Below are positions 9,120 through 27,130 of a stretch of 42,837 nt of DNA, one piece after another. This DNA is from Magnetococcales bacterium (GTDB lineage: Bacteria > Pseudomonadota > Magnetococcia > Magnetococcales > UBA8363). Position 1 is the stretch's first letter. Each line of letters opens with the position of its first letter. The notes beneath the pieces are model-generated. The model ran no database searches, was not told the DNA's origin, and saw nothing but the letters and a program-made list of their open reading frames with translations. Location: positions 1-42,837 of the forward strand of contig JADGCQ010000020.1 of assembly GCA_015228925.1 (NCBI GenBank). The letters run 5' to 3'. Both the position numbers and the translations under genes were made by a program.

Positions 9120-9584
9120 CTAGTTATAATCTCCCCGTTCGCTTTTCGCCAGTTCTACTGTTGCCAAAACCGTCGTTCGGTGCAACAAATCCCGTTCCAG
9201 ACCGGTTGTCGGGGTATCGGACAGGGTTCGCAGGGCACTGTCTCTTGTTTTGCGCAGATGAGAGCGCAGTTGGACGTTTTCCAGCGACCCGCTTTTGCTG
9301 GAAGATGAAATATCCCGGCCCATGGCGGCCAGAGAATCCAGGAGTTCCCCGGTTTGTAGCAATTGTTCACGGCGTTGATGGGAAGTCGGTTCACGATCAC
9401 TCACGGCACCGATCTGCGAGGGTGCGGTGATCTCTTCGACCCCTTCCACTTCATGGATTCCGGCAACATCCGCCAGATGACGGGCAAAAATTTCCCCTTT
9501 GATCCCCTCGATGTTTCGACTTTTGGCGGATGACACCGAGCCAGAGGCTGGGGTTCCAGCCTTTCCCACACGGCGGATGCTCAT
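9120..9584 (-). CDS. FliX-like flagellar assembly regulator
   Basis: This 154-aa soluble protein has a low-complexity N-terminal half and a helical C-terminal half. Its HQRREQLLQTGELLDSL segment resembles the helical core of FliX, and its final helix TVLATVELAKSERG resembles the FliX C-terminus (…AAVELAKL…). In Caulobacter, FliX works with the sigma-54 activator FlbD to couple late flagellar gene expression to basal-body assembly. AGGAG precedes the ATG. A sigma-54-like promoter lies 65-80 bp upstream (9649-9664), consistent with a flagellar gene class. No other flagellar gene is in the window, which is unusual for FliX. Assignment rests on recognised sequence similarity only. Confidence 0.6.
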   Translation of the reverse strand: MSIRRVGKAGTPASGSVSSAKSRNIEGIKGEIFARHLADVAGIHEVEGVEEITAPSQIGAVSDREPTSHQRREQLLQTGELLDSLAAMGRDISSSSKSGSLENVQLRSHLRKTRDSALRTLSDTPTTGLERDLLHRTTVLATVELAKSERGDYN

Positions 9585-9648: not shown

Positions 9649-9664
9649 TACAAGGCGCGTGCCA
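9649..9664 (-). promoter_or_regulatory. Sigma-54-like promoter upstream of the fliX-like gene
   Basis: On the minus strand the sequence is TGGCACGCGCCTTGTA. It matches the consensus TGGCACG-N4-TTGCA except that the -12 C is T (GG-N10-GT rather than GG-N10-GC). The predicted start is near 9638, about 54 nt before the fliX-like ATG. FliX itself acts in the sigma-54 flagellar hierarchy of Caulobacter, which makes the site plausible. Confidence 0.5.
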
Positions 9665-19529: not shown

Positions 19530-19862
19530 TCAGGATTTCACGGCCTGTTCAATAGCTTCGGTTACGAACTGGTTGAGGCTTTTGCTCAGGGACTCGGCCA
19601 CCGAAATGGCGCGGGCGTGCAGTTCTGGGGGAACCCTCGCCATGATTTTTCCAGAAAAAGGCCTGTCGGGGCTTTCCCCTTTTGCCGCGCAGGTTTCCAG
19701 ATAAAAATCGACAGATTCCCGAAAGGCTTGTTTTATCTCGGTAACAGACTCACCGTGGAAGGTGATGATCGGTTTGATGCCGACGACGCGCCCTACGAAG
19801 CATCCATCCTCGTCGCTGTACTCGATTCGGGCCGCATAGCCCTTGTGCATCATGGGGGTCAT
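19530..19862 (-). CDS. HicB-family antitoxin-like protein (solitary)
   Basis: This 110-aa protein has an N-terminal HicB-like partial RNase H fold (YAARIEYSDEDGCFVGRV, then ITFHGESVTE and the AFRESVDFYLE helix). A C-terminal ribbon-helix-helix-type segment follows (GKIMARVPPELHARAISVAESLSKSLNQFVTEAI). HicB proteins neutralise the mRNA interferase HicA and repress their own operon. No HicA is present on either side. GGAG lies 7 bases before the ATG at 19862. The ATG overlaps the TGA of a 20-codon open frame (19859-19921) that starts at the edge of the repeat element, so an upstream partner may have been lost. Confidence 0.8.
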   Translation of the reverse strand: MTPMMHKGYAARIEYSDEDGCFVGRVVGIKPIITFHGESVTEIKQAFRESVDFYLETCAAKGESPDRPFSGKIMARVPPELHARAISVAESLSKSLNQFVTEAIEQAVKS

Positions 19863-20187: not shown

Positions 20188-21753
20188 TCACTCCTCCGAG
20201 AGGGGGAATGACGGGCTTAATTTTTTTTCAATTTGATAAAGTTTGATTTTATTGTGTAGCGATTGCCGGGTGACATCCAGCAACGCTGCGGCTTGTATTT
20301 TATTGCCTTTAGTCTTTTGTAGTGCTTTAAGGATTAATTTAATTTCGGTACGGCGGCGGTGTTCCGGGAGGGAGAGGGTATCGGGTTCCGACTCGGTGGG
20401 TTGCGGGGTATGGGAACGGAGGGAGCAATGTTCAATGGAGATGATTTCACCATCGGGGGTGAGGGCGACGAGCCGTTCGACTTCGTGTTGTAGCTGACGG
20501 ACATTGCCGGGCCAGTCAAAGCGTTCAAACAGTTCCATGACCTCGCTGGAGAAACCGCGGACATGTTTGTTGAAGCGGGCGTTGATTTCATCGAGGAACA
20601 TAAGTGCCAGAGGGACGATATCATCCGGGCGTTTGTTGAGGGGGGGGATGGTGATATCGACGGAGAAAAGGCGGAAGAAAAGGTCTTCTCTGAACCGTCC
20701 TTTGGCGACCTCTTCACGCAGGTCGCGGCTGGAGGCGGAGATGATACGGAATTGGTAGTGATGTATTTTTTGTCCGCCGAGGCGTGTCCCTTCGTTTTCT
20801 TGGATGGCGCGGAGGAACTTGGGTTGGATGGAGGGGGGCATGTCGGCGATTTCGTCCAGGAAGAGAGTCCCCCCAGAGGCCTCCTCGAAGCGTCCCATGC
20901 GACTGGTGTGTGCGCCGGTGAAGGCCCCTTTTTCAAAACCGAAAAATTCGCTCTCCATAAGGGTTTCGGGGATGGAAGAGCAGTTGACGGCGACGAAAGG
21001 TCGATTGCGGCGATCTTCGGCGGCTTCGTGGATGATCCGGGCGATAACCTCCTTGCCGGTGCCGCTGGCACCGGTGATAAAGACGTTGACGGGGAGGGGG
21101 CCGATCTTGGAAGCGATATCGAGTACCTGGCGCATGGGTTTGCTGGCAGCGATAAAGCGGTGTTTCCCCTTAAGAATTTCGTTGGTACGTGTCAGTTCGT
21201 CGTGCATCCCTCGGGAGATGCGGATAATTTCATCACTGACGCGATTGTTTTCGATGGAGAGTGCCAGAAATTTGACGATCCGTTGCAATAAGGCGGCATC
21301 GGCTTCATCGAAGTCGAAAGGTTCTTGTTTATTCAGGAGTTCGACGGCACCGAGGGCATAGTTGCCGACGATGCTGATGATGGGGACGCTGAGAATATTG
21401 CGGGTGATGAAGTCGGTTTTTCGAGCGATTTCCTGATGAAAACCGGCACTTTGGTCGAGTCGTCCCTGGATGATGGTTTGGGAGGTGGTGATGGATTTTC
21501 CGACGATGCTCCCATTTTTGGGGGCGATGATTTCTTTTTCTTTGAGTCCGGTTCCGAATTGCAGCCAAATATCATCGGAGTTGGCATCCGCCAGGAAGAT
21601 GGAGCAGCGTTCCGCCTTGAAGAGGGTAGGAAAGATATCGACGAAGAAGAGCATGAGATCTTCATAATCGCGGGTGGCCCAGGAACGGTTGATGCGATCA
21701 AGGAGAGACTTGAGATTGACAAGCCTCTGGTGGATATCACCGGGCTTGGTCAT
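20188..21753 (-). CDS. Sigma-54-dependent transcriptional activator with GAF domain
   Basis: This protein remodels sigma-54 RNA polymerase at -24/-12 promoters. The N-terminal 190 residues are a GAF-type sensor domain. A AAA+ domain follows with Walker A GASGTGKEV, the sigma-54-contacting GAFTGA loop, Walker B GGTLFLDEIAD and arginine-finger region FREDLFFRL. The C-terminus is a Fis-type HTH (IQAAALLDVTRQSLHNKIK). All core motifs are intact. I take ATG 21753 (521 aa), with GGA about 8 bases upstream; the longer frame starts at a TTG (21804) without a ribosome site. No receiver domain is present, so the input is probably a ligand or redox cue sensed by GAF. It is divergent from a small secreted protein gene with a sigma-54-like promoter, its likely target. 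Confidence 0.93.
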   Translation of the reverse strand: MTKPGDIHQRLVNLKSLLDRINRSWATRDYEDLMLFFVDIFPTLFKAERCSIFLADANSDDIWLQFGTGLKEKEIIAPKNGSIVGKSITTSQTIIQGRLDQSAGFHQEIARKTDFITRNILSVPIISIVGNYALGAVELLNKQEPFDFDEADAALLQRIVKFLALSIENNRVSDEIIRISRGMHDELTRTNEILKGKHRFIAASKPMRQVLDIASKIGPLPVNVFITGASGTGKEVIARIIHEAAEDRRNRPFVAVNCSSIPETLMESEFFGFEKGAFTGAHTSRMGRFEEASGGTLFLDEIADMPPSIQPKFLRAIQENEGTRLGGQKIHHYQFRIISASSRDLREEVAKGRFREDLFFRLFSVDITIPPLNKRPDDIVPLALMFLDEINARFNKHVRGFSSEVMELFERFDWPGNVRQLQHEVERLVALTPDGEIISIEHCSLRSHTPQPTESEPDTLSLPEHRRRTEIKLILKALQKTKGNKIQAAALLDVTRQSLHNKIKLYQIEKKLSPSFPLSEE

Positions 21754-21804
21754 TGTGGATTTCCATGCATAGAGGGGGTGATCACGGGAAGTATCATGGT
21801 TCAA

Positions 21805-22039
21805 ACATTCGATAAGTAATCAATCATGGACTTGTCATTTATCTATTCGTGACACGGGTGAAAAATATTTAGACATTTTTTGTTTGGCTTTACATTTTAA
21901 AAACTGAAACGGCATAAGAAAATTTCATGGGCATTCCTTGGAGAGCATGGTGTATGGTGGAAGCGTGTGATTTATCAGGAGGTGTGTGGTGGGGTTTTGG
22001 TTGGTGGGAGGGGGATGGGGGTCGAGGATAGGGCAATAT
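21805..22039. other. Divergent intergenic region between the sigma-54 activator and the small secreted protein gene
   Basis: This stretch is AT-rich near the activator and G-rich near the secreted protein gene. I see no convincing gene. A small palindrome, CGTGACACG, lies near 21847-21855 and could be part of an activator site, but this is weak. The sigma-54-like promoter at 22040-22055 borders it. Confidence 0.4.
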
Positions 22040-22055
22040 TGGCGCGATAGATGCT
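22040..22055 (+). promoter_or_regulatory. Sigma-54-like promoter for the small secreted protein gene
   Basis: TGGCGCGATAGATGCT has the invariant GG (22041-22042), exactly 10 bases, then GC (22053-22054). It is close to the consensus TGGCACG-N4-TTGCA. The predicted start is near 22066, leaving a 5' leader of about 40 nt with GGAGG at 22093-22097. The gene for a sigma-54 activator is divergent and next door. Confidence 0.55.
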
Positions 22056-22105
22056 CTGTGTCGGTCAGGTATGTTTTGGATTGTTTTATTGTGGAGGACC
22101 GAATC

Positions 22106-22378
22106 ATGAAAGCGTTGCGCGGATGTGGGGGGAGATGGGGCAAGGGGTTAGCGATGGTTTTGGGATTGGGGATGGCGTTATCGACGGCGACGCCGGTTTA
22201 TGCGGCACCTGGGGATGCGGCGATTGTTTTGGTTGGATTGATTTTAGGTGGCGCACGGAATGTGGGGGGGCACCACAAGGTGATGGTTCCCAGGGGTGCC
22301 GTGCAGACGGCTGAGAGGGATAGAATCTCGGTGCCGGATTGTGGTCGGTCGGGTGTTTCGCCGTGTGGTTATCCGTGA
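22106..22378 (+). CDS. Small secreted protein of unknown function (90 aa)
   Basis: An excellent ribosome site (GGAGG, 8 bases before ATG 22106) precedes a classical signal peptide. It has a basic start (KALRGCGGRWGK), a hydrophobic core (LAMVLGLGMALSTA) and a probable signal peptidase I cut after PVYA. The mature part is about 57 residues. It has a short hydrophobic Gly-rich stretch (IVLVGLILGGA), a His pair, and two cysteines near the C-terminus. I do not recognise a family. The gene is tail-to-tail with the InsA-like gene, with 10 bp between stop codons, and has its own sigma-54-like promoter. Export is well supported; function is unknown. Confidence 0.7.
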   Translation: MKALRGCGGRWGKGLAMVLGLGMALSTATPVYAAPGDAAIVLVGLILGGARNVGGHHKVMVPRGAVQTAERDRISVPDCGRSGVSPCGYP

Positions 22379-22388
22379 GGTTGGCGGG

Positions 22389-22727
22389 TCAACCGGCAGC
22401 GACCTTGGCGGGTTGATTTTTGCGGGGGCGGACACCGACGGGGGGCGCGGAGAATCGGGAGAGTTGTTGGAAGATTGTGAGGACATCGGACTCGGACAAT
22501 TTAAGGGATTGTGATATTTCGGTGGCGTCGGCACCATCGAGGGCGAGTTCGATGATTTGGGTGCGCATGGAAGGTGCGAGGGGTTGCGCACGGTAGTTCA
22601 GCAGGAAGATGGTCCTTTCGCAACGCGGATCTTGGCAACTGTAGCGTTGTTCGCCGTTGGGTTGTTTGCCGTATTTGACCACATTCAGTCCATTGCAATC
22701 GGGGCAGCGTACTTGAGCGAGGGCCAT
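22389..22727 (-). CDS. Solitary InsA-like zinc-ribbon/HTH protein
   Basis: This 112-aa protein matches the pattern of IS1 InsA. A zinc ribbon near the N-terminus (CPDC … QRYSC … RC) is followed by a helical HTH-like region (IIELALDGADATEISQSLKLSESDV). InsA normally is the DNA-binding half of the IS1 transposase and a repressor, made with InsB by frameshifting. Here there is no InsB frame, no transposase core and no inverted terminal repeats, and the C-terminus ends in a basic tail. AGGAG is well placed before the ATG. A sigma-54-like sequence lies about 55-70 bp upstream. I infer a domesticated DNA-binding protein rather than an active insertion sequence. Confidence 0.7.
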   Translation of the reverse strand: MALAQVRCPDCNGLNVVKYGKQPNGEQRYSCQDPRCERTIFLLNYRAQPLAPSMRTQIIELALDGADATEISQSLKLSESDVLTIFQQLSRFSAPPVGVRPRKNQPAKVAAG

Positions 22728-22779
22728 GGTGGACTCCTTGGGGTGGATGGGGTGATGTTCCGCGTCATGGTTTATGGAT

Positions 22780-22795
22780 TACAAGGTTTGTGCCA
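22780..22795 (-). promoter_or_regulatory. Sigma-54-like promoter for the InsA-like gene
   Basis: Minus-strand TGGCACAAACCTTGTA matches the consensus TGGCACG-N4-TTGCA except A for G in the -24 block and T for C at -12. It has the same GG-N10-GT arrangement as the site before the fliX-like gene. The predicted start is near 22770, about 43 nt before the ATG. A palindrome ACCCTGTATAGGGT (22843-22856) lies about 75-85 bp upstream of that start, where activator sites often lie. Confidence 0.4.
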
Positions 22796-22842
22796 GGGCG
22801 TCTTTTTTTAATAGTTTATTGAAATTATTTATTATTTTTTAT

Positions 22843-22856
22843 ACCCTGTATAGGGT
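22843..22856. promoter_or_regulatory. Palindromic candidate operator ACCCTGTATAGGGT
   Basis: Perfect 5-bp arms flank a GTAT centre in the gap between the InsA-like and DnaJ-related genes. The distance to the sigma-54-like promoter suits an upstream activator site, but no second copy was found before the secreted protein gene. Confidence 0.3.
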
Positions 22857-22870
22857 GTCGGCGCATTTAT

Positions 22871-22917
22871 GGAATTATTTGCCGGGTGGCTGTGGCAAAT
22901 AATTCCGGTATTTTTTT
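22871..22917 (+). terminator. Perfect 13-bp inverted repeat with T run (terminator-like, plus orientation)
   Basis: GGAATTATTTGCC (22871-22883), a 10-base loop and GGCAAATAATTCC (22894-22906) are perfectly complementary. Seven T (22911-22917) follow on the plus strand. By shape it is a rho-independent terminator for rightward transcription, yet both flanking genes are on the minus strand. It could stop antisense readthrough into the DnaJ-related gene, or be a protein-binding site. Confidence 0.5.
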
Positions 22918-23666: not shown

Positions 23667-25046
23667 ATGACCCCACAGACCCAACCTCCGCCATCCGAAC
23701 GTCTCGCCCGTCAGGTCCAGGGGCTGACGACCCTCCTGACGTTGCAAGAGGAGGCGCGTCAAGCGCAAAGCTTGGCTGAACTGGCCTTTATCATCGTCAA
23801 TGGCACTCTGCGCTTGGTCTCCTACGCCCAGGCGGTATTTTGGCGGGTGACCCCTGGAAAAAAAAATATCCTGACCGCCGTTTCCGGTGCCCCCCGGTTT
23901 GATCCCAACGCCCCGCAAATGGTTTGGTATCGCAAAGCCATCGATGTTCTGACCCAGGCCGCCGATATGGACCCGATTCAGGAGGTCGCCTTGGAACGAT
24001 TGCCGCCGGCGTTGCGTCAGGAAGGGGAAGACTGGAGCCATGCCCATGGAGTATGGTTGCGGGTGAAACATCCCCGAAGTGGCGCAAACCTCGGTGGGTT
24101 GTGGTTGAGCCGTGACCGCCCCTGGGAAGAGGGGGAGCGGGTGTTGTTGGAACATCTGCTCAATGGCTATGCCGAATCGGTAGCCCTGTGGCAGCAGCGA
24201 CCATTGCCAGGTGCCATGATCCTGCGAAAATTGCGCCGAGGGGGGGGGATCTTGATACTCCTGGCCGCTTTGTTCGCAACCCTGTTCATTCCAGTGCGCC
24301 AATCGGTTTTGGCCCCGGCGCGGGTGGCTGCGGTGGATCCCTCCATGGTCACCGCACCCATGGATGGGATGGTGGCGCGGTTTTTTATCCAACCCCATGC
24401 CCAGGTGAAAGTGGGTGATCTTCTCTTCACTCTGGATACCACAGAACTCAATCATCGTTATCACTTGGCCCTCGAAGAATTGGCCCTCGCGCAAACCCAA
24501 CTGCGTAAGGTGGGGCAATTGGCCTTCTCCGAAAAAGAACGGGTGGCCGAAATCGCAACCAATAAAAACTTGGTCCGCGAAGCCAGTGCCAAGGTCGATT
24601 ATGCGGTGGAACTCCTGGAACGGGCGCAGGTCAAGGCGGCAGTCGATGGGGTGGCGGTGTTCAGCGACCCCTATGCCTGGTTGGGGCGACCGGTGCGTTT
24701 GGGGGAACGGGTGCTGGAAATCGCCTCCCCCCAACGTGTGGAAATCGCCATCGACCTCCCCGCCGCCGAGGCGATGCCCTTTGTTTTGGAATCGGAGGTG
24801 GTGCTTTATCTGGATGGTGATCCCCTCAACCCCCTCTCTGGGCGTCTCCGTTTTGCCGCCTATGAGGCGACGCTAACCCCGGAAGGAAAACTGATCTATC
24901 TGCTGAAGGCCGATTTTGCTCCCCACACCACCTTGCCGCGTCTGGGACTTAAGGGGACCGCCAAGGTGTATGGTCGTGAAGTAACCTTGTTTCACGCTCT
25001 GTTCCACCGTCCCATCGCCGCCCTGCGCCGTCTGGTGATTCTGTGA
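23667..25046 (+). CDS. GAF-domain/HlyD-type membrane fusion protein
   Basis: This 459-aa protein has a cytoplasmic GAF-like domain (about residues 15-180), one transmembrane helix (about 193-210, GGILILLAALFATLFIPV) and a periplasmic HlyD-type adaptor part. The adaptor part has a barrel-sandwich half (VTAPMDGMVARFFIQPHAQVKVGDLLFTLD), a short helical hairpin and a second half (VKAAVDGVAVFSDP … LGERVLEIASPQ). HlyD proteins normally link an inner-membrane transporter to an outer-membrane channel; neither is present here. Its stop overlaps the GTG start of the M50 gene by 4 nt, so the two are coupled. The ribosome site is weak. Pairs of GAF-HlyD and M50 proteins are known from annotation of other proteobacteria, with no established function that I can name. 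Confidence 0.85.
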   Translation: MTPQTQPPPSERLARQVQGLTTLLTLQEEARQAQSLAELAFIIVNGTLRLVSYAQAVFWRVTPGKKNILTAVSGAPRFDPNAPQMVWYRKAIDVLTQAADMDPIQEVALERLPPALRQEGEDWSHAHGVWLRVKHPRSGANLGGLWLSRDRPWEEGERVLLEHLLNGYAESVALWQQRPLPGAMILRKLRRGGGILILLAALFATLFIPVRQSVLAPARVAAVDPSMVTAPMDGMVARFFIQPHAQVKVGDLLFTLDTTELNHRYHLALEELALAQTQLRKVGQLAFSEKERVAEIATNKNLVREASAKVDYAVELLERAQVKAAVDGVAVFSDPYAWLGRPVRLGERVLEIASPQRVEIAIDLPAAEAMPFVLESEVVLYLDGDPLNPLSGRLRFAAYEATLTPEGKLIYLLKADFAPHTTLPRLGLKGTAKVYGREVTLFHALFHRPIAALRRLVIL

Positions 25047-27130
25047 CCCCGGAGGCGGGACAGCTTCCGCCATTGCGGCAGGATTTGCGCCTGCTCCCCG
25101 GTGGGGCGGGAGGGGGCGGGGAACCCACTTGGTTGTTGTGGGATCAACCGCGCAATCTGTTCTTTCGTGTGGGATGGGCCGAATTTGAAATGCTTTCCCG
25201 CTGGGCTTTGTGCCGGGAGCCGCAAGGGTTGATCGATGCCGTCAACCGCGAAACCACCCTGACCATGACCTCCGAACGGTTGGCGGAATTGGTGCAATTT
25301 TTAAGGCTTCAAGGGTTGGTACAACCGGATCGTGCCGATTTTCGCCGATATGCAGGACAGACTGGCGTGTTCACCGCATTATTGCACCATTATCTTTTTT
25401 TCAGAATTCCCCTGGTCCGCCCCGATTCTTTTTTGCAAAAAATCTTCCCTGTGGCGACATTCTTGGGCCATGGGGTGACCCTTTTTTTGACTGGAGTGGC
25501 CTTGGTGCTGGGGGGGTACTTCACATTACGCCAATGGGATGCGTTTACCGGTTCCGTGGGGGGATGGAGCAGCCCGGAGGGGATGACCATCTTGTTCATC
25601 ACGATTTTCGCCTCCAAACTGGTGCATGAACTGGGACATGCCCTGGCGGCCAAGCGTATGGGATGTCGGATTCCCGCCATGGGGGTCGCCTTTTTGGTCC
25701 TGTGGCCATTTTTCTATACCGATACCAATGAAACTTGGCGTTTGACCCAAAAAAAAGATCGTTTTCGTGTCGCCATCGCCGGAATCGCCGCCGAATCCTT
25801 TCTGGCGGCCTGGGCACTCTTGGCCTGGGCTTTGGTGGCGGACGGGCCATGGCGCGGCGCACTTTTTTCCTTGGTTGCGGTCATCTGGACCAGCACGCTA
25901 CTCCTGAATGCCAACCCGTTCATGCGGTTTGATGGCTATTTTATGCTTTCCGATACCCTGGATATCCCGAATCTTCATGAACGGGCCTTTGCTATGGGTA
26001 AATGGTTCCTCCGTAGAACCCTTTTGGGGGCGAAACTTCCCCTCCCGGAGCCATGGCTATTGCGGCAACGGGTATTTTTGATCACCTTTGCCCTGGGAAC
26101 TTGGCTTTATCGTGTGATCTTATATTTTGGCATCGCCCTGTTGGTTTACCATCTTTTTTTCAAGCTATTGGGGGCGTTCCTCATGATGGTGGAGGTATAT
26201 TGGTTCTTGTTGGGGCCGATCATGAAAGAATTGGGGTGGTGGTGGCGCAACAGAACACAGATGGCGGCGGGGCATGTCCGGTTATGGATGCTTTTGGCCT
26301 TGTTGGGATGTGCGATATTTTTCCTCCCATGGCATAGCGCGATCAAGATGCCGGCGGTGTTGCGTACTTCGGTCCATGTCAGGATTTTCCCCCCCGAAGG
26401 GGGGATGATTCAAACTCTTGCGGTGGCATTGGGACAACGGGTCAACAAGGGAGATCCTTTGCTGAAACTGGATGCTTCCGAATGGCGGGGGCAATTGCGC
26501 TTGGCGCGATTGGCAGTGGTGCGGTTGCAGGGGGAGTTGCTGCTCCAGGGTCCACAATTTGCCGCCAACCGTCTGGTGGCCGAACAGCAGTTTGCCAGTG
26601 CCAACGCCCAGGTTTTTGGTTTGCTGCGGCAGATGGAGCGGTTGGACATTTCATCTCCCATCGATGGGACGGTGACCAAACTTCGGGAGGGGCTGGTCCA
26701 AGGGATGATGGTGGGGCGAGAAGATGAACTGATTACCATCCGCCAGTATGCCTCGGAGCAGATTTTTGCCTATGTGGCGGAGGATCAACGCGATTTGGTG
26801 CCACCGGGATCCCAGGGGATATTTTATCCCGATCACGCGGGGTATCCGACGATCCCTTGTACCTGGGTGGATGCCGATCCGTTTGCGGTGGCAACATTGG
26901 AGGATGTGCAACTGGCGTCGGTCTATGGTGGTCCCATCGAGGTGGAGCGGATGGAACGGGAAACGCTCCGTCCGCAGTACCCGGTCTTTATCATCCGTTT
27001 TCAGCGGGGGGGCGCGGCGATGGAACAGACGATCGCGGGGATGGTGATTGTCCCAGGACGGCCCGATACGTTGGCGGGGCGGGTTTGGAAAAGTGTCGCA
27101 GCGTTATGGATCCGGGAGACCGGATTCTAA
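25043..27130 (+). CDS. M50-type membrane metallopeptidase with PqqD-like and barrel-sandwich domains
   Basis: This 695-aa protein starts at a GTG overlapping the previous stop (GTGA). The N-terminal 110 residues look like a PqqD-type winged helix. A polytopic membrane region follows, with zinc motif HELGH (195-199) and third ligand region FMRFDGYFMLSD (Asp297), as in site-2 proteases. More membrane helices lie near 345-375 and 415-435. The C-terminal third is a HlyD-like barrel-sandwich/lipoyl domain (about 445-580) in the periplasm. The active-site residues are intact, so proteolysis within the membrane is plausible. I infer that it works as one envelope complex with the upstream adaptor. 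The substrate is unknown. It converges with the AlbA_2 gene (40 bp, no clear terminator). Confidence 0.88.
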   Translation: MTPEAGQLPPLRQDLRLLPGGAGGGGEPTWLLWDQPRNLFFRVGWAEFEMLSRWALCREPQGLIDAVNRETTLTMTSERLAELVQFLRLQGLVQPDRADFRRYAGQTGVFTALLHHYLFFRIPLVRPDSFLQKIFPVATFLGHGVTLFLTGVALVLGGYFTLRQWDAFTGSVGGWSSPEGMTILFITIFASKLVHELGHALAAKRMGCRIPAMGVAFLVLWPFFYTDTNETWRLTQKKDRFRVAIAGIAAESFLAAWALLAWALVADGPWRGALFSLVAVIWTSTLLLNANPFMRFDGYFMLSDTLDIPNLHERAFAMGKWFLRRTLLGAKLPLPEPWLLRQRVFLITFALGTWLYRVILYFGIALLVYHLFFKLLGAFLMMVEVYWFLLGPIMKELGWWWRNRTQMAAGHVRLWMLLALLGCAIFFLPWHSAIKMPAVLRTSVHVRIFPPEGGMIQTLAVALGQRVNKGDPLLKLDASEWRGQLRLARLAVVRLQGELLLQGPQFAANRLVAEQQFASANAQVFGLLRQMERLDISSPIDGTVTKLREGLVQGMMVGREDELITIRQYASEQIFAYVAEDQRDLVPPGSQGIFYPDHAGYPTIPCTWVDADPFAVATLEDVQLASVYGGPIEVERMERETLRPQYPVFIIRFQRGGAAMEQTIAGMVIVPGRPDTLAGRVWKSVAALWIRETGF

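Follow-up and report, generated by a model that had tools for sequence, protein, structure and literature searches.

The locus described here raises the question of what a gene derived from an insertion sequence is doing next to a sigma-54 activator, and which regulator controls the two. In the 42,837-nucleotide stretch of Magnetococcales DNA that was analysed (the window), a sigma-54 activator gene (20188..21753, minus strand), a gene for a small, apparently exported protein (22106..22378, plus strand), and an InsA-like gene (22389..22727, minus strand) follow each other. Judged by its relatives, the genome belongs to the magnetotactic order Magnetococcales. The initial annotation had read them as a self-contained sigma-54 regulon. 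Direct reading of the sequence bore out the three genes and their positions, including the 10-bp gap between the stop codons of the secreted and InsA-like ORFs (22379-22388), and the intact GAFTGA of the activator and the sigma-54-like motifs at 22040-22055 and 22780-22795 are present as described. The best explanation overall, to which we would assign a probability of about two in three, is that a domesticated InsA half and a second activator have come under FlbD-like/sigma-54 flagellar control.

The activator comprises 521 amino acids and has the features of the NtrC-family enhancer-binding proteins (an AAA+ domain with GAFTGA and a Fis-type HTH), preceded by a GAF domain, with Pfam matches to GAF, Sigma54_activat, and HTH_8. 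It reaches 290.4 bits for NifA, short of the curated cut-off of 528.85, and it likewise misses the cut-offs of all other NCBIfam models among the matches listed. Relatives of the activator are present in most families of the Magnetococcales.

The InsA-like protein (112 amino acids) corresponds to only the InsA half of the IS1 transposase. It matches the Pfam family Zn_ribbon_InsA (PF03811) and covers positions 1-81 of the 199 positions of NF033558, below the IS1 model cut-off of 100 bits, and alignment and profile place the Cys4 zinc ribbon and the HTH of InsA at residues 8-91. The catalytic InsB half was not found in the window, where the neighbours of the InsA-like gene are other genes, and the only inverted repeat of at least 11 bp (copies at most 60 bp apart) between 20000 and 24000 is the pair of dyads discussed below. 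An AlphaFold model (pLDDT 67.8, pTM 0.33) has paired-domain and LuxR-type HTHs as best Foldseek matches, with 0 of 834 at E <= 0.001, and weakly supports the predicted HTH. Within the genus, dN is 0.11-0.21 with dS above 1.2, and the comparison with the near-copy in G004 gives a dN/dS of 0.32 based on very few changes; one near full-length copy is present per genome among the genomes counted. In several families, these comparisons show an intact gene that evolves under purifying selection. The initial proposal of a DNA-binding protein derived from a transposase is thus supported by profile matches, alignment, and purifying selection, with the binding itself being predicted, and the protein is transposase-derived, kept by selection, and probably DNA-binding.

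Both members of the pair, InsA-like gene and activator, lie on the minus strand, and the pair is conserved. Of 29 loci, 18 have the activator downstream of the InsA-like gene on the same strand, and at the remaining 11 it was not seen downstream. In the window, a 633-bp gap holding the convergent gene separates the two, and at L034, L035, L037, and L038 they are 0-8 bp apart or overlap by 2 bp. The same-strand pairing had been missed in the initial annotation, which took conservation of the trio of activator, secreted, and InsA-like gene in related genomes as a check of its reading. This trio is not conserved, given that the secreted gene is limited to the genus (five of its eight genomes) and absent from all 33 other genomes searched. 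A match in G030 was dropped as spurious (the frame contains stops, there is no plausible ORF, and the match appears to fall on the antisense strand of a different gene). According to the sequence comparison, the conserved unit is the InsA-like gene together with the activator.

The sigma-54 part of the earlier reading fared better: the genome encodes rpoN (one Sigma54_DBD match, 223.7 bits), and both -24/-12 elements are kept in relatives, that of the secreted gene in 5/5 orthologues and that of the InsA-like gene across families. The sigma-54 -24/-12 consensus is TGGCACG-N4-TTGCW, and TGGCGCGATAGATGCT and TGGCACAAACCTTGTA each agree with it at 10 of 12 fixed positions. The window contains 11 matches of this quality versus a mean of 4.95 (range 1-9) in 20 Markov simulations, and eight of the 11 are located inside other predicted ORFs (>=80 aa). 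Motif matching by itself is weak evidence; conservation is strong evidence.

The element of the secreted gene, TGGCGCGATAGATGCT (22040..22055, plus strand, GG-N10-GC), is located 66 bp before the ATG in the window and at -58 to -69 from the ATG across the five orthologues, all of which retain GG-N10-GC. The site is identical in the window and G004, and its flanks have diverged in the other three orthologues. It also lies within a longer in-frame ORF with a GTG start at 21986, but a conserved ribosome site, GGAGGACC, and a signal-peptide-like N terminus, read by eye, favour the ATG at 22106. The encoded protein (90 aa) has no Pfam or NCBIfam match; its core DAAIVLVGLILGGARxxGGHK is conserved, the C-terminal GYP is found in four of five orthologues, and the comparison with G004 gives a dN of 0.05 and a dS of 0.22. 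The transcript of the secreted gene may end at a terminator-like stem followed by a T run (22400..22423, plus strand), which lies within the 3'-terminal part of the InsA-like gene and comes from a consensus scan that found two such structures versus 1.4 expected.

The conserved site of the five orthologues comes without perfect FlbD-type dyads, none being present within 400 bp of the promoter. Because the site is nevertheless conserved, the neighbouring activator may drive the secreted gene. An element upstream of the activator (21845..21895), which is conserved in the alignment of six genomes of the genus and reads ATGTAAA ... ATGTCTAAATATTTT ... TCACGAA on the minus strand, is a candidate site for the activator or another regulator, at about 145-195 bp upstream of the -24 of the secreted gene. 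In some other families, too, TGTAAA-type dyads precede the activator. The TAAA ... CGAA within the element would also allow a sigma-28-like reading. It is only somewhat less than an even bet that sigma-54 does not control the secreted gene, or that the neighbouring activator does not drive it, with the motif being coincidental or serving another activator. The -24/-12 element is imperfect, any enhancer is at most a candidate, and the TGTAAA/TGTCT element also occurs in G005, a genome without the secreted gene; a site conserved in 5/5 orthologues, compared to a background of 1.4-2.2% per region, argues against this view.

The promoter of the InsA-like operon, TGGCACAAACCTTGTA (22780..22795, minus strand, GG-N10-GT), lies 68 bp before the ATG. 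Its position and the TGGCAY half are conserved in relatives, and the -12 is GT in the window and GA in many relatives, not the canonical GC. Further upstream, positions 22871-22906 form a perfect 13-bp inverted repeat, composed of a distal putative enhancer dyad, GGAATTATTTGCC (22894..22906), and a proximal one, GGCAAATAATTCC (22871..22883), which starts 88 bp upstream of TGGC. Both are read on the minus strand and have the form GGMA-N5-TKCC. The repeat is absent from the initial annotation. At 23 of 28 InsA-like loci, a dyad precedes a -24/-12-like site by 55-135 bp, versus 247 of 20,000 random 800-bp windows (1.2%), both patterns having been refined on the same loci as counted; 13 of the 28 loci pass with the strict form TGGCAY-N5-TTG. 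An enhancer-like site at a set distance is thus found, on these refined patterns: in 19 of the 23 loci, the nearest dyad lies 67-69, 86-90, or 98-101 bp from TGGC, with the distance classes not being independent because they largely follow clades. The density of single dyads in the InsA-like loci is 0.24 per kb, so that about one in five 900-bp upstream regions would hold one by chance. Dyads are absent at L050 and L051, the latter being a truncated frame, and lie farther off (208-462 bp) at L035, L036, and L038.

The same pattern precedes flagellar genes. Scanning 41 genomes for a dyad with -24/-12 element resulted in 133 sites versus eight for the reversed control. Among 20 hand-picked sites, ten head genes for FliK (seven) or FlgE/F/G (three); for the other ten, including three of six in the window's own genome, the downstream genes are not established as flagellar. 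PMC3333781 gives CCCGGCAxxxxxTGCCGGG as the FlbD site and GGCAxxxxTGCC as the DVU1063 site, and the InsA-like promoter carries the ftr-like dyad GGCA-N5-TGCC in the degenerate form GGMA-N5-TKCC. By profile matching, each of the seven genomes tested encodes one FlbD-like gene (one match at E <= 1e-100 in 7/7). The encoded proteins reach 419-437 bits, short of the curated FlbD cut-off of 750; the one from the window's genome has the AAA+ domain and Fis HTH with a receiver below the Pfam cut-off. FliX was considered for the ORF at 9123-9584, which has no Pfam match, and is not claimed. Since the InsA-like and the fliK and flgE/F/G-type promoters have the dyads in common, a FlbD-like gene is present, and dyads also stand where no activator orthologue was found, the flagellar sigma-54 regulon most likely includes the InsA-like operon.

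This bears directly on the initial proposal, in which the neighbouring activator would turn on the secreted and the InsA-like gene alike, each at a sigma-54 promoter of its own. The proposal draws on the adjacency of the genes, the conserved -24/-12 elements, and the intact GAFTGA. However, the draft genomes G013 and G041 keep the InsA-like dyads and no activator orthologue was found in them, which led us to reject binding by the activator as the only reading of the paired dyads. Of the two genomes, G013 carries less weight because one in-frame TGA interrupts its FlbD-like gene, a point in favour of the proposal. The InsA-like dyad is also common to fliK and flgE/F/G-type genes, and the secreted promoter has no perfect dyad within 400 bp, so that one activator site does not serve both promoters. 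While the conserved -24/-12 elements and rpoN stand, a unit run solely by the adjacent activator is therefore unlikely.

The paired dyads might instead be the operator of the InsA-like protein itself, serving autorepression as at the promoter of IS1 InsA. According to PMC12428005, IS1 InsA is an autorepressor with a DNA-binding domain common to InsA and the transposase. In genomes where no activator was found, the dyads still accompany the InsA-like gene, and the strict N10 dyad pair occurs at only one place in the window's genome, the InsA-like promoter. However, 7 of 11 places with the strict pair in 41 genomes are located away from an InsA-like gene. The pair as a unique mark of the InsA-like promoter thus holds for the window's genome only, and single dyads with -24/-12 elements are widespread, preceding fliK and flgE/F/G-type genes. 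Moreover, G008 has no InsA-like match, yet contains six pattern sites, one of them before an FlgE/F/G gene (L280), and the dyad consensus resembles the FlbD site given in PMC3333781. In place of a FlbD enhancer, an operator is thus rather improbable, but both readings could be true at once.

A reading of the repeat at 22871-22906 as an intrinsic terminator, and of the InsA-like gene as a decaying IS1 remnant, is very improbable, because the T run following the repeat on the plus strand (hence terminator-like), arms able to form 7-13 of 13 pairs in 12 loci (at least nine in 10 of 12), and partial IS1-like InsA copies elsewhere in the window's genome are opposed by the lack of a convincing plus-strand gene end near the repeat, the set distance between dyads and -24/-12 in most loci, and an intact gene under purifying selection over several families. 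Such pairing of the arms is also expected of two near-palindromic sites.

Flagellar control would operate as follows. The InsA-like gene would be a domesticated IS1 transposase half that has kept the DNA-binding zinc ribbon and HTH and lost the catalytic half; it would often head an operon whose next gene is the GAF/AAA+/Fis sigma-54 activator. The FlbD-like flagellar activator would bind the GGMA-N5-TKCC dyads upstream of the operon's sigma-54 promoter, and with this protein bound there, the InsA-like regulator and the second activator would be made together with the hook and rod genes. The InsA-like protein would then bind DNA as a regulator of transcription, most likely as a repressor like IS1 InsA. 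The second activator would turn on a sigma-54 target further down the cascade; within this genus, the divergent gene for the small exported protein is the likeliest one. The conserved pair, its promoter and dyads, and the same pattern before fliK and flgE/F/G-type genes are found by sequence comparison; from these we infer the binding of the dyads by the FlbD-like protein, the regulatory role of the InsA-like protein, and the driving of the secreted gene by the activator. The InsA-like gene is thus probably an unrecognised step in the motility control of magnetotactic cocci. More speculatively, and rather doubtful in its full extent, a transposase fragment would sit within the flagellar hierarchy, with the InsA-like protein providing feedback or a checkpoint and the activator opening a third tier, which in this genus would include a small exported protein linked to how the cells swim or behave on surfaces.

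To our knowledge, the domestication of the DNA-binding half of an IS transposase into a lineage-specific bacterial regulator has rarely been documented. In a partial coverage of the literature, no paper listed dealt with a regulator derived from InsA or with a FlbD regulon in Magnetococcales. Here the wiring can be read: a flagellar-type enhancer precedes the domesticated InsA-like gene, and a second activator often follows. The locus offers a concrete and testable candidate for extra motility control in magnetotactic cocci, and the dyad and -24/-12 pattern provides an initial outline of a FlbD-like regulon in Magnetococcales.

Compared to known systems, the activator has the domain order of the NifA and NorR type activators (GAF, AAA+ with GAFTGA, Fis HTH) but is paired with an InsA-like gene. 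With IS1 InsA, the InsA-like protein has the zinc ribbon and HTH in common, and an autoregulatory position is possible for its gene. However, this gene has no InsB half beside it in the window, occurs in one near full-length copy per genome among the genomes counted, has a sigma-54-type promoter and frequently a fixed partner gene, and is conserved by descent in one order. Further close parallels are the FlbD/ftr regulon of Caulobacter and the DVU1063 system of Desulfovibrio vulgaris, which also have a GGCA-N5-TGCC-like enhancer upstream of -24/-12, located before rod and hook-length genes, and a FlbD-like activator with a weakly scoring receiver. In contrast to these, the dyad here is often GGMA/TKCC and paired, the FlbD-like proteins score below the curated FlbD cut-off, and the set takes in one gene derived from a transposase and another for a second sigma-54 activator.

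The activator (21753-20188, minus strand), the secreted ORF (22106-22378, plus strand) and the InsA-like ORF (22727-22389, minus strand) lie on contig C122, part of a draft genome of 4.25 Mb, and the window sequence contains these genes and both sigma-54-like motifs where the initial annotation had placed them. That annotation had combined the three genes into one inducible unit in which both small genes carry sigma-54-like promoters. Its observation is confirmed and its sigma-54 idea holds, although the wiring of the unit probably differs from the one it proposed. As evidence for sigma-54 promoters a motif match by itself is not impressive. Matches in 10 of 12 positions occur 11 times in the window compared with 4.95 on average (range 1-9) in 20 Markov simulations, and eight of the 11 fall within other predicted ORFs. 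A further intergenic site, TGGCACGCGCCTTGTA at 9649-9664 (minus strand), matches in 11 of 12 positions and is located 80 bp ahead of a 154-aa ORF (9123-9584, minus strand) without matches in a Pfam search. A protein with a similar start is encoded at L267:361-810 in genome G005, after a dyad (GGMA-N5-TKCC) plus -24/-12 site. An ORF resembling HicB-family antitoxins (19530-19862, minus strand) is found downstream of the activator, and at 23667-27130 (plus strand) an HlyD-like membrane fusion protein stands ahead of a protein that combines M50 peptidase and HlyD parts, the two forming a possible peptide maturation or export pair.

Matches to the InsA-like protein are present in 29 of the 41 genomes compared (E <= 0.001), including fragments of IS1-like elements. 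Near full-length relatives (40% identity or more across at least 88 residues) are found in 23 of the 41, representing seven families of the order as counted from the match listing. In the named genome collection, all 20 loci encoding a relative of the InsA-like alignment are titled Magnetococcales (magnetotactic cocci) or Candidatus Magnetaquicoccus, a magnetotactic coccus, the closest being 97% identical; on this ground the window is assigned to that order. Neighbourhoods were compared at 29 loci, comprising the window, 23 stretches extracted by their coordinates, and L070, L071, L072, L078, and L081; L028, a near-copy of the window, is counted among them. The activator lies downstream of the InsA-like gene on the same strand at 18 loci, separated by 0-8 bp or overlapping by 2 bp in L034, L035, L037, and L038. 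It was not seen downstream at the other 11, among them L048 and L051, whose contigs end there, and L041, L047, and L078, where only about 0.7-1.4 kb are left. In the window, G004, G007, and G006 the two genes flank the secreted gene, which has the opposite orientation. In G002, where the InsA-like gene is on a separate contig, the secreted gene adjoins the activator, and G005 has the InsA-like/activator pair without it. Searching the 41 genomes revealed the secreted gene in five of the eight genomes of the genus and in none of the 33 others, one spurious match being discarded. None of the InsA-like gene, the secreted gene and a close activator relative was found in G001 and G003, both of which are 74-75% complete. 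Judged by gene neighbourhoods, the conserved unit is the InsA-like gene plus the activator. In several families a Crp/Fnr-type gene is divergent from the InsA-like operon (L042:3712-4413, L039:6047-6721, L048:1162-1926, and seven further loci). The L042 gene, the single copy scanned, has cNMP_binding and HTH_Crp_2 domains; at the loci belonging to the genus of the window a tblastn search gave no such gene. In L039, L040, L041, L045, L046, L048, L049, L081, and perhaps L047, the InsA-like gene is separated from its sigma-54-like promoter by a small ORF of low conservation.

The InsA-like protein matches the InsA zinc ribbon of Pfam (PF03811, E 1e-7) and positions 1-81 of the 199 of the IS1 transposase model (E 2e-12, below the model's cut-off), and every one of the 20 aligned sequences keeps its four cysteines. 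The predicted structure comprises ribbon strands and three helices at modest confidence, and its fold matches are weak. Because dN is below dS, both within the genus (0.11-0.21 versus above 1.2, close to saturation) and against the near-copy in G004 (0.012 versus 0.038), the gene is under purifying selection. IS1 InsA is described in PMC12428005 as an autorepressor sharing the DNA-binding domain of the transposase, and therefore a regulatory role may be inferred for the InsA-like protein. Partial or interrupted IS1-like InsA matches, distinct from the conserved gene, occur on contigs C142, C166, C197, C105, and C193 of the window's genome.

Elements of the TGGCAY-N5-TTG type precede the InsA-like gene both within the genus and in further families. 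In the window, two perfect dyads (22871-22883 and 22894-22906) are located upstream of this promoter. Of the 29 loci, 27 have one or more perfect dyads in the 900 bp (in L030, 339 bp) ahead of the InsA-like gene; at the background of 0.24 per kb in these loci about one in five would be expected to carry one by chance. Leaving out L028, 23 of 28 loci have a -24/-12-like site with a dyad 55-135 bp ahead of it, versus 247 of 20,000 random windows, with a -24/-12 expression that was broadened after the loci had been seen; under the strict TGGCAY-N5-TTG form the figure is 13 of 28. Among the five remaining loci, three have both elements at 208-462 bp, and L050 and L051 lack the dyad. The closest dyad is 67-69, 86-90 or 98-101 bp from TGGC in 19 of the 23, which hints at helical phasing, although these classes largely track clades.

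The pattern GGMAN5TKCC-N58-88-TGGCAYN5TYG matches 133 sites in the 41 genomes versus eight for the reversed control, and 39 genomes have at least one. We inspected 20 of the 133, comprising the full set of five non-InsA sites in the window's genome plus 15 picked by hand, favouring recurring sequences. Seven of these precede FliK genes and three FlgE/F/G-type genes. One precedes the gene of a NUDIX protein (L277) and one that of a repeat protein with carboxypeptidase-regulatory-like domains (L276); those at L267, L271, L278, and L279 gave no Pfam matches, and at L263, L264, L265, and L269 no convincing gene was recognised by eye. Of the six sites in the window's genome, one each precedes the InsA-like gene, fliK and a flgE/F/G-type gene, and three have no convincing gene after them. 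The dyads of the InsA-like promoter look flagellar in type. According to PMC3333781, the site of FlbD, the Caulobacter flagellar sigma-54 activator, is CCCGGCAxxxxxTGCCGGG and that of Desulfovibrio DVU1063 is GGCAxxxxTGCC, and PMC3930126 describes FlbD as switching flagellar genes at ftr sites. Each of the seven genomes tested contains one FlbD-like match at E <= 1e-100, all below the curated cut-off. In the window's genome, this FlbD-like protein carries AAA+ and Fis HTH domains and a receiver under the Pfam cut-off, and another AAA+ activator is encoded nearby.

Two genomes speak against the neighbouring activator as regulator of the InsA-like promoter: G013 (98% complete) and G041 keep the -24/-12 element and both dyads along with the InsA-like gene. 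An activator orthologue was not found in G013, where the best GAF match (E 7e-16) is to a different frame of 903 residues, nor in G041, which gave no GAF matches at 1e-6; in these metagenome-derived drafts the absence is not certain. The FlbD-like match is present in both, intact in G041 and interrupted by one in-frame TGA in G013. The activator relatives L204 (G021) and L205 (G010) have no GAFTGA-like string by simple pattern search.

The secreted ORF is supported as a coding gene because dN is 0.05 versus a dS of 0.22 against G004; beyond this comparison it evolves fast (dN 0.40-0.53). Its ribosome site is conserved in the five orthologues. Its -24/-12 element is kept in all five at -58 to -69 from the ATG, is identical in the window and G004, and follows a rule that 1.4-2.2% of random regions meet. 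Within 400 bp upstream none of the five has a perfect GGMA-N5-TKCC dyad, and three dyads with one mismatch occur in G007 and G006. A conserved element lies upstream of the activator at 21845-21895, about 145-195 bp upstream of the -24 of the secreted gene, through which the activator might drive this gene. The element is also found in G005, though that genome lacks the secreted gene. Upstream of the activator orthologue, L213 (G017) has two perfect TGTAAA-N5-TTTACA dyads, and in some other families related but degenerate elements stand ahead of the activator.

The flagellar hierarchy of one order has apparently taken in a transposase-derived gene, followed by a candidate cascade that is open to testing. 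Although derived from an IS1 element, the InsA-like protein is not itself one. The activator, an NtrC-family protein, has the domain order of NifA but fails the NifA cut-off. The InsA-like promoter resembles an FlbD/ftr sigma-54 promoter in look and placing, and its putative membership in this class is supported by the dyad, the geometry, and the shared flagellar targets.
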